Shown in pieces: positions 12,536 to 63,177 of a stretch of DNA of 64,000 nucleotides; position 1 is the first letter of the stretch, and each line of letters opens with the position of its first letter. The position numbers and the translations under genes were made by a program. Source of the DNA: Nymphaea colorata (taxonomy: Eukaryota > Streptophyta > Magnoliopsida > Nymphaeales > Nymphaeaceae); contig NC_045138.2 in NCBI RefSeq assembly GCF_008831285.2, positions 39,733,115 through 39,797,114 of the forward strand, written 5' to 3'. Below the pieces are notes generated by a model. That model searched no databases. It had not been told where the DNA came from and worked only from the letters and a program-made list of their open reading frames with translations.

Positions 12536-13298
12536 TTTGTCAGTATCTGTTTTGGTTCTTTGTCAGTTCAAAAACTTAACTTTTTCAATGTTCCCCACAC
12601 CCCCCTCTTAAAAAGTCCCGTTTTATTGTGTACTTTAAGTATATATTTTGTTCTTTTAAAATGTTTAAAACTAATCTGATTTTTTGTCAATATTATTTGT
12701 AAGGAATTAGTCGAAAACTTATAATTTCCATAATTTTTTCTATTTATATTTAAAAGCTTTTGATTTTTTTAAAGTTTTCGAGATTTTCCAACAAAAACAA
12801 AAATCTTAGAAAAACTTATGGGTACTAGAAGTTCCTATAGTAATATTTGTGATTATGGTTCAGGCTTGCTACCATTTTGTAAATTTGGCAGTTGGCACCA
12901 AGTTTTCATCTGTGTTACCATGCTGCTCTGTTGTAGTGGTTAGTGAAAGGGAATAACATCCTTGTCATTTTAGGCCCTGCTATGACTAAATTTACTATTG
13001 CATTGAGGGAAATTGGCACCTACAAAGAGGTTCTACGTTCTCAGGTAAATGGTTGGATCTAATGTCTACAATTATTAATTTTCACGTAGCTGTGATTTCA
13101 ATGGTGTAGATCTTACTTGATCAGACATACAACCATTTTCGTTAAACCTATTCTATGAGGTTTGATTGACTAGATCTATTAATTTCGTTATAGTTTTAGT
13201 GACTAAATGTTGCATCATGAGTTCTCGGTGGTAAAATCCTGATTGGAATTTGAAGACCTATGTCACATAGATGTGGGTGTGGATGCAAAGAGGATATA

Positions 13299-13337
<39 letters not shown>

Positions 13338-13985
13338 ATATATATATATTATATAATTGAATGTTGATCACTCAACCATCTAATTAGAACTGTCTGATCC
13401 ATCATGTTAGACGGTTAAGAGAAGCGGTAATTTTTCAGAACATTTTAAGAGAAGCAGGACAAAAATCAGAAACTAAAAAACTACATATCATGTTCTTTTC
13501 AGTACTGCTTACCTCAAAAAATTCAAGGCAAATCTGCAAATCTACTGAAAAAACCAAAGCAAATCCTACCTGCACAAGGACAGAGCACTAGAGATTTGCT
13601 GGGTGCCAGAAAATGTACCCAGCCATTGGAGGTTTCCTGTGGCTGCCTCTCAATGGACGCCGCCAATGTGCTCTGCCGGTAGGTTGGGAACGTCGCCATA
13701 AGTTGGAAATGTTCCTGTTTTGAGTTTCCCCAATTTTGAACAACAAAAACCCTAAATTGCATCGAGTTGTTTTCCCATCTATCAATGAAATGTTTCTAAC
13801 GTCTTACATTTTACATTTTAGTCCTTTTTTTTACAAATTTACCATTTAAGATTTTTAAAAATTACAATTGATGCCACCACCTGAAAAAAAAAATTGCTTT
13901 TAAAAAGGACCAAAAAATCATACATGTTTTTTTTTTACCTTTTTTTTTGAAAAAGAACGCTCTTTCTTCGCTTTTTTTCGTGACA

Positions 13986-14024
<39 letters not shown>

Positions 14025-60475: not shown

Positions 60476-60657
60476 GTGGGACTGGCTGAACCACTCCCCT
60501 CTTTCTCTTCTTCCTCTCTAGTCTCTCTCACTTCTCTCTCATTATCTCTCCCACCCCTTCCTCCCTCTCTTCTCATTTAGTATTCAATGGCCATTAACGA
60601 TGAGACGGGATTGTGAGAGGATAAAAATAGAATTAGAGGACTGGTTCAGCCAGTCCC
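60476..60657. repeat. Foldback with perfect 16-bp arms
   Basis: GGGACTGGCTGAACCA (60,476-60,491) and its exact reverse complement TGGTTCAGCCAGTCCC (60,642-60,657) enclose a pyrimidine-rich 150-bp loop. This may be a very short foldback element. I saw no target duplication. Confidence 0.75.
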
Positions 60658-62649
60658 AGTGAATGCCTTCCTAATAGATTAATGGGATGGATTAGGGAAT
60701 TGCATCTGGTAGAGCAAATTATGTAACTATTTCCAAAACTTGTACAAAAAGGGAAAACCCATAAACTTGTCTTTCTAAAACTAAATAACAGAAGACAAAG
60801 GAAACAGCTAAAAAAAATTACCAAATGCAAAGTTAATGGTTTCAGATTAGCTACTAGTTGGTCAACCACTAGCTGCTCAACCTGACCTATTAGTCCTAAC
60901 CTAGGGCTTGGGTATTTGGAGGCTGGAGGCTAGTTAGTATACTGGCGACCACCGACCAGAGCTGAAGCGACTAGAGTTGACAAGCAGTTAGTCAGGCCTT
61001 ACTAATTGTTAGTTTACTTTACCACATAACTTGACTTGATGTGTGAAGGAAGTGAGTAGGAGGTCTCCTTTCATTATCCATAGGCAGTGTTCTGAGTTTC
61101 ATAGCATGTTGGACAATATGTACCGTGGGAAATCAGTAAATTACACCCCTTGCTGAAACTGGTTTCAAAGGTTTAATGGTATTGTATCTGGTGTAACTTA
61201 TGATGCACTGCTTGTGTCTTATGTTATGGTACAATACAAGATGTATCTTATGTTACACCTTTACAGCACCAAAAGATGTCAAGGAGATTCTTTTGTGAAC
61301 TTAAATAAGTTTGTCATGAATGGCATCTGTATGCATTTAAAAATTTAAAAAATGGGCTGATTTCATGCAAAAAGTTGTGTGGTTTTCGAACGAGAGTCTA
61401 TCTCTATCCTCCAAAATGGAAAAAATAAAATAAAACACTCTAACAAGTCATAGATAAGAGATAAGACAATTTATTGTTTGATATCTCTTTAGATATTGAG
61501 AGTAATTTAAGTGGTCAATTTTAATTTTCTCTAGTAAAAATGTGCATGTTGTGAATAGCATATACTTGTTATTTTCTTATGTTTATGTAATCTATGCTTT
61601 CAAAGATACTTTATGTTTTCATTTCCACTTTTATTTTTTATATTATTTTTTGTGTTCTTTTCATATTAAGAAATAAAATTTGTGAAATTTTTTTATCTTA
61701 TATTATGCTATCCATGTCTCTAACTTTGGACCTGAACAACGTCTTTTACAACCCATAAGTTGAAGGTTGTTAATTTAGGATATTTCTCTTATAAGGTTAA
61801 TGACCTTTTCCTTTTCAAAGTGCAAAGTATATGTTGTTACAATTTCCATGGGAACAGAAACCAATTATGCTTTTAGTGTACGAAGACGAGTCTATTTTGT
61901 GGCAAGAAGCCAAGCTTTCAAAGTGCCTAACTCTGAAGTCGTAGCCGTGTGGCTTCCAAGAAACAACCTTCAGTTGATATGTTAAAGTGTGCAATGGCCA
62001 TAGTATTAATTGCTTTTAGAGCATGGTTTCAACTTTCTTTGCATTTTAAGTAGAACACATGCTTCATAAACTAAGTCATTTGCATTTATTTGAGTGCACA
62101 TACCTGGACATTTGTTTTGGTCTGGCAAAACTTGTTCATATGAAACATGATATGATGATATTATTGATAAATAATAACTTAAAGTCTTAAACCTTTTGGT
62201 TGAAGTCAGTTGTCAAGAGCATGTTATGAAACATGTTCTTGTACTTTCCAGTATAGCATGCACTGAAACACATTAAAAACCTATAAATAGCACAGTGCAC
62301 CTTATCAGGCTAGGGATGCCTCATAGGTGAGACACGCTATATTTCATCTGTTGCATTGTTTCTAAGTCTTTTGTAAACTTTATTTTTCTGTTTATTTGTG
62401 TCTTATTCAGTTAGTACTGTAGACTTTTTTATAATGCTATTTCCTATATAGTTTTTTTTTCTGTATATTAGTTTTGGATTGCTCCTTCTATACATTGTTT
62501 ATGATTTTTCCCATGTAAATTAACAATGAAAATAATATGGTACTGACAAGAAAATAACTGCAAACAATGTATAGGTATTGCTATATGGATTATGAACACT
62601 TTTTTATTGCCTTCAATTGCTGAGTAGTACGTAGTTGTGCTTTCAGGGG

Positions 62650-62963
62650 TGTGCATCTAAGTCACAGTGGTGAGACAACTATGGTGGCGCACCTGCACCC
62701 GCATCGGTGCAGGTGCTGGTGCGGCCTGACACGGCATCAAATGAGTTTTGGCCGTTCTGAAAAATGTTTTGGCTGAGTTTTTATTGATATATCGATTCAA
62801 AGTAACTGTGCATCTAAGTCACAGTGGTGAGACAACTATGGTGGCGCACCTGCACCCGCATCGGTGCAGGTGCTGGTGCGGCCTGACACGGCATCAAATG
62901 AGTTTTGGCCATTCTGAAAAATGTTTTGGCTGAGTTTTTATTGATATATCGATTCAAAGTAAC
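62650..62963. repeat. 157-bp tandem duplication at the left end of copy E
   Basis: Units 62,650-62,806 and 62,807-62,963 are identical except for one base (G at 62,754, A at 62,911). Each unit starts with TGTGCAT, the flanking target-site copy, followed by the element end CTAAGTCACAG. Confidence 0.95.
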
Positions 62964-63177
62964 CTTGATAAAAAAAAAAAAATTAACAATATAGACAAAC
63001 AAAAGTACTTATATGACAAATAACATATATATCTATATAAGATATGTGTATACATACACACACACACACACATATATTTATTTATTTATATGCTATCGCT
63101 GCACCCGTACTCAATTTTTTTTGGAACTTCCGCATCCCGCACCGGCACCCACACCCATGTGACATAGTGTGCATGCT
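62657..63177. mobile_element. hAT-like non-autonomous element, copy E
   Basis: The left end CTAAGTCACAGTGG and the right end ACCCATGTGACATAG match the family. TGTGCAT flanks both sides (62,650-62,656 and 63,178-63,184). Subterminal words GGTGCAGGTGCTGGTGCGG and the complementary CCGCACCGGCACCC occur inside. The interior has TA/CA microsatellites. The left 150 bp were tandemly duplicated after insertion. Confidence 0.75.

Follow-up and report, generated by a model that had tools for sequence, protein, structure and literature searches.

The 64-kb window analyzed here, i.e., the whole stretch of DNA on which the positions below are numbered, contains several short sequences with similar tips and with short repeated words just inside them. 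This raises the question of whether these sequences are copies of one transposon family, to what kind such a family would belong, and how its subterminal words come to differ between copies. An initial annotation had taken them for hAT-like MITEs whose word arrays may change by slippage.

Elements, tips and flanking sequences

We scanned the window with two tip types, CTATGTCAC and CTAAGTCAC, and found that the tips of five elements (A to E) lie within 2 mismatches of one or the other. Short terminal inverted repeats of the form CTAWGTCAC ... GTGACWTAG are present in all five, with 0–2 mismatches. The scan re-found both boundaries of A to D as given in the initial annotation, together with the start of E and a solo tip (F) at 30,567; the end of E, which had been placed at 63,177, lies instead at 63,167. 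When the copies are oriented by their two different ends, termed L and R, C and E run opposite to A, B and D. The five elements together account for 5.3% of the window. The features are as follows:

13258..14112, + strand: element A, 855 bp, L end at left; flanks TTGAAGAC/TTCAAGAT, 6/8 matching in register
14179..15305, + strand: element B, 1127 bp, L end at left; flanks TTATATAT/TATATATG, 1/8 in register, with TATATAT matching 7/7 only at a one-base offset; AT-rich
14179..14265, + strand: L end of B, in which the tip is followed by GGTRCGG words (13, 19, 25 and 31, counted along the element), a CAAAAA spacer and two more words (57 and 65)
23493..24077, - strand: element C, 585 bp, inverted, L end at right; duplication TTTGTCTC, 8/8 in register
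30567..30579, + strand: solo L tip F, CTATGTCACATAG, the same as the tips of A and B
59711..60035, + strand: element D, 325 bp, L end at left; flanks CCTATATG/TCTATATG, 7/8 in register
62657..63167, - strand: element E, 511 bp, inverted, L end at right; flanks GTGTGCAT/TGTGCATG, 0/8 in register, with TGTGCAT matching 7/7 at a one-base offset
62650..62806 (copy 1) and 62807..62963 (copy 2), no strand assigned: tandem duplication of 157 bp at the R end of E, 1 mismatch

Matching flanks, given in the initial annotation as direct repeats of 7–8 bp, are seen in all five elements, in register in C, D and A, and in B and E at the one-base offset alone. C has the sole perfect in-register 8-mer among the five. 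The chance level was estimated from 200,000 random pairs drawn from the window, in which matches of at least 6/8 occur at a rate of 0.0063, of at least 7/8 at 0.00076, of 8/8 at 0.000035 and of 7/7 at the offset at 0.000115. When 6/8 in register and the one-base offset are combined as limits, which were picked post hoc with the five flanks already known and somewhat flatter the excess, matching flanks are seen in 5/5 elements at a random-pair rate of 0.0069 (0.0098 near B). As a control, we collected 309 tip-like pairs lying 250–1300 bp apart with at most 2 mismatches, of which 8 have flanks matching at the same limits, with about 2 expected. These 8 are A to E themselves, the inner duplicated end of E (62814–63167), and the pairs 14655–15305 and 44343–45202, the last two of which are probably chance matches. 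The flank match of B carries little weight because its TATATAT sits in AT-rich, low-complexity DNA. That of E is most simply read as an 8-bp duplication of GTGTGCAT from which one G would have been lost at the right junction.

The tandem duplication in E and the 7-bp flank TGTGCAT begin on the same base, so that this 7-mer is present three times; a compact form of the element, using the inner duplicated R end, spans 62814–63167. The duplication is possibly a transposase-linked repair event. The L tip CTATGTCACATAG, identical in A, B and F (13258, 14179 and 30567), is a near-palindrome and hence tip-like in both directions. For F, no partner end was found within 12 kb on either side at up to 3 tip mismatches and at least a 6/8 flank match in register. 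A further sequence, CTAAGTTAC at 15317, 11 bp past the right end of B, is a possible remnant of another R end.

All five elements had been assigned to introns, an assignment that we could follow for A, B and C, which lie within an ACAP-type ARF-GAP gene. A and B are found between exon pieces at ~13.0 and 16.46 kb of this gene and C between its ArfGap piece at ~22.6 kb and ankyrin-encoding sequence from 25.4 kb, where the query pieces were joined by eye and the BAR match falls below the Pfam cut-off. As a host gene for D and E we considered a possible first exon at ~57.6 kb, which we had taken to be NECAP-like; we do not advance this candidate, as the 33-residue piece has no Pfam or PDB match and the expected later-exon motifs were not seen. 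The window also contains two U1 snRNA genes on the + strand (50997–51157 and 53820–53980; Rfam RF00003, 140 and 136 bits), and near them two tRNA-Gly(GCC) genes (54645–54715 and 55872–55942) 1.2 kb apart, perhaps a local duplication. On the - strand, 32838–36032 is an uninterrupted ORF of 1064 residues with pentatricopeptide-like repeats discernible by eye. This ORF, the ARF-GAP coding pieces and the U1 genes point to a plant origin of the DNA.

Two different ends and their subterminal words

The two ends had been described as mirror-complementary; they are in fact distinct, as seen both in held-out profiles and in the orientation of the ends. Read by eye, the L end runs approximately as CTATGTCACATAGGTGTGGGTGCCGGTGCGG; next come an A-rich spacer and a further one or two words, and then an AT-rich repeat. 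The R end opens differently between copies: C and E have CTAAGTCAC, A and D have CTATGT, and B has CTAAGTAAC. Beyond the R tip the words occur in both orientations, whereas at the L ends they occur in one.

For the held-out test, each copy was searched with a profile made from the remaining copies, the tested copy being excluded (A was tested with the B–E profile). The L ends of all five were recovered from model position 1, with E-values of 2.2e-8 for E, 2.9e-7 for B, 1.6e-6 for C, 3e-6 for D and 2.5e-4 for A, the match in A spanning its first 29 bp. Among the R ends, two of the five were recovered weakly (that of E at 0.011 and that of A at 0.047, the latter not from the tip), and those of B, C and D were not recovered by profile at E up to 0.05. 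Since the held-out profiles recover the L ends, and the R ends weakly or not at all, the L end is the better conserved of the two.

There are 25 exact GGTRCGG words in the window, of which 21 fall within B, C, D and E; two of the 21 are one word present in both duplicated halves of E. We counted words with at most 1 mismatch in L arms of 100 bp and R arms of 160 bp, and compared the counts with 300 dinucleotide shuffles per arm. The L arms of B to E have 20 inward-strand words against 1 on the opposite strand, and 0/300 shuffles reach each inward count; their R arms have 15 inward and 10 opposite, the inward count being reached in 1 to 10 of 300 shuffles. Thus, in B to E short words are repeated near both ends, as in Ds. 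This Ds-like arrangement does not extend to A, whose arms have one L word (11/300 shuffles) and zero R words; the arm of F has one word (28/300 shuffles). With no exact GGTRCGG word and a 6/8 flank match, copy A is a weak member of the set, and both A and tip F remain weaker as transposon ends than B, C, D and E.

Family identity and proposed mechanism

A to E share their tips, have asymmetric L and R ends, cluster their words near these ends and are bounded by matching flanks. From these features, we consider A to E to be probably old copies of one non-autonomous hAT family (Ds-like MITEs) with two different ends, moved by a transposase from elsewhere. The hAT-like, non-autonomous reading of the initial annotation, with subterminal words of the type that a transposase would bind, is supported by the tip pairs, the flanks compatible with 8 bp, the word clustering, the conserved L end and the lack of a transposase match in the 10 of 70 ORF segments scanned (see below), and gives way with respect to the mirroring of the ends.

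The elements are 325–1127 bp in size, and the longest stop-free segment in A to E has 103 residues. Of their 70 ORF segments of at least 35 residues, we scanned 10 (three from A, five from B, one each from C and E, and none from D), and in these detected no remnant of a transposase or of a captured gene (best Pfam E 0.12). An autonomous hAT transposase carries BED, RNase H-like and hATC parts. We infer that such a hAT-type enzyme bound the words and moved A to E: encoded elsewhere in the genome, it would bind the GGTRCGG words through a BED-type domain, bring the L and R ends together and cut at the tips, with insertion following by an 8-bp staggered cut.

We know of no named hAT family with the tip CTATGTCAC. 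Among open-access papers, TACGGGTACGGG and CTATGTCACATAG were without match, GTGCGGGTGCGG retrieved two papers unrelated by title, and CTATGTTGCTCGG matched one, on tobacco miRNA; Repbase and P-MITE lie outside the scope of that search. The pattern CTATGTCACATAGGTRYGGG gave 0 matches in a collection of viral, as opposed to plant, sequences. Within the scope of these papers, A to E would be a previously undescribed family of a well-known type.

One close parallel is with the maize Ac/Ds system. In the excerpted text of PMC3260210, Ac and Ds have common 11-bp tips, 8-bp duplications and hexamer words no more than 200 bp from each end, which are bound by the Ac/Ds transposase, and the interiors of Ds elements are often unrelated. 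A to E resemble these elements, and Ds1 and Ds-l4 in particular, in their short conserved tips, in flanks compatible with 8-bp duplications and in their apparently non-autonomous state, and likewise in having words within ~200 bp of the ends and unrelated interiors of variable size (PMC3260210). They are unlike them in having the tip CTATGTCAC/CTAAGTCAC in place of C/TAGGGATGAAA and the word GGTRCGG in place of AAACGG (PMC3260210). Taking the 11-bp tip C/TAGGGATGAAA together with AAACGG words as the mark of Ac/Ds membership, none of A to E belongs to that group.

Hermes is an insect element with the repeat AAGT/AAGC, from which the plant elements A to E with their GGTRCGG words differ. Its BED domains bind short subterminal repeats whose layout is asymmetric, and it is the left end that they engage, according to the available part of PMC10368747. 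The repeats likewise differ between the ends of A to E, where it is the L end that is conserved and has words in one orientation (PMC10368747), with end use in A to E being read from this conservation. A third comparison is offered by hAT-type CGG-binding domains, which in the excerpt of PMC8097297 mostly prefer CGG-containing motifs; for four hAT proteins, a match to the motif is seen in the subterminal regions of the protein's own element. A to E are alike in having CGG-containing motifs in their subterminal regions and unlike in that those proteins are animal and fungal, whereas A to E are known as DNA sequences only (PMC8097297). By analogy, the CGG core, the one-way L array and the L/R asymmetry would fit end binding of the Ac/Ds–Hermes type.

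Two other accounts of the elements were weighed against their being a hAT family. They might belong to another cut-and-paste superfamily that merely resembles hAT, e.g., a Mutator-like one with 9-bp duplications or a different one with 8-bp duplications. The 10 ORF segments scanned out of 70 show no transposase, a perfect 8-bp duplication is present in only one of the five elements and the tip differs from the C/TAGGGATGAAA of Ac/Ds (PMC3260210), all of which would be compatible with such an origin. However, the flanks of C (8/8), D (7/8) and A (6/8) match in register at exactly 8 bp, the tips are short (~9 bp), and just inside them short words recur as they do in Ac/Ds (PMC3260210), making this origin improbable. 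That the arrays are ordinary GC-rich repeats, or the tips chance matches rather than transposon ends, derives some plausibility from the frequency of tip-like 9-mers in the window (141 heads and 121 tails at up to 2 mismatches). This account is very hard to sustain against the held-out L-end profile matches and the flank matches in 5/5 elements, and for B, C, D and E it is already contradicted.

How the words change

Within the hAT family that A to E probably represent, the words of B are mainly GGTACGG at both ends, as opposed to GGTGCGG elsewhere, and are largely spaced in 6-bp steps. Counted over the arms, the ratio of GTAC to GTGC is 14:2 in B and 2:20 in C to E (Fisher p 1.3e-6, with the caveat that the words are not independent), and the two ends of B agree with each other (6:1 and 8:1). 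The positions of the B words are near-regular, those of the L end (listed above) following one another at 6 bp and those of the R end lying at 54, 60, 72 and 78. The first three L words of B, C and E are in register (13, 19/20 and 25/26), and in both C and E they read, in order, GGTGTGG, GGTGCCG and GGTGCGG. In D, the L words lie approximately one 6-bp unit further in than in B, C and E: GGTGCCG lies at 26 in D and at 20 in C, and the following word, GCTGCGG in D and GGTGCGG in C, at 32 and 26, respectively. The one-mismatch words of all 11 arms comprise 11 transitions and 8 transversions.

The constant register of the first three L words across B, C and E, together with the variants common to C and E, makes the L words of these three copies look partly like the product of inheritance with point changes. 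Slippage, by which tandem 6-mers would be gained, lost and homogenized independently in each end, could account for the near-regular 6-bp steps and the predominance of one word type in B, and for the L words of D, which are shifted as if one unit had been gained relative to C. It is at odds with the matching positions and shared variants of B, C and E, which point to descent, and with the mix of transitions and transversions among the one-mismatch words; nor would independent slippage predict that the two ends of B carry one and the same variant, an agreement seen in one copy only. The slippage proposed in the initial annotation hence fits the arrays of B and the unit shift of D and not the register of B, C and E, and we regard it as a doubtful explanation. 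The word type may instead follow transposase specificity, such that in the lineage of B both ends would have gone from GGTGCGG to GGTACGG under a different transposase. This is suggested by the opposite GTAC:GTGC ratios of B and C to E and by the agreement of the two ends of B, and is in line with the varying specificity of hAT-type DNA-binding domains described in the excerpt of PMC8097297. Nevertheless, it concerns a single copy, for which slippage, common ancestry or conversion between the ends would give the same picture, and we entertain it only tentatively, as possible if on balance not likely.

More speculatively, and in our estimation rather unlikely, the words would have switched in concert at both ends while the cleavage tips stayed nearly fixed, so that the word type would record which of two transposases of different BED specificity moves each sublineage, i.e., a case of coevolution between transposase and binding site.

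As it stands, the set formed by A to E is one more plant hAT MITE family, of use for annotation. Should the asymmetry of the L and R ends and the paired change of word hold genome-wide, the family would constitute a natural experiment on hAT end recognition, and would show how non-autonomous elements keep pace with a changing transposase.
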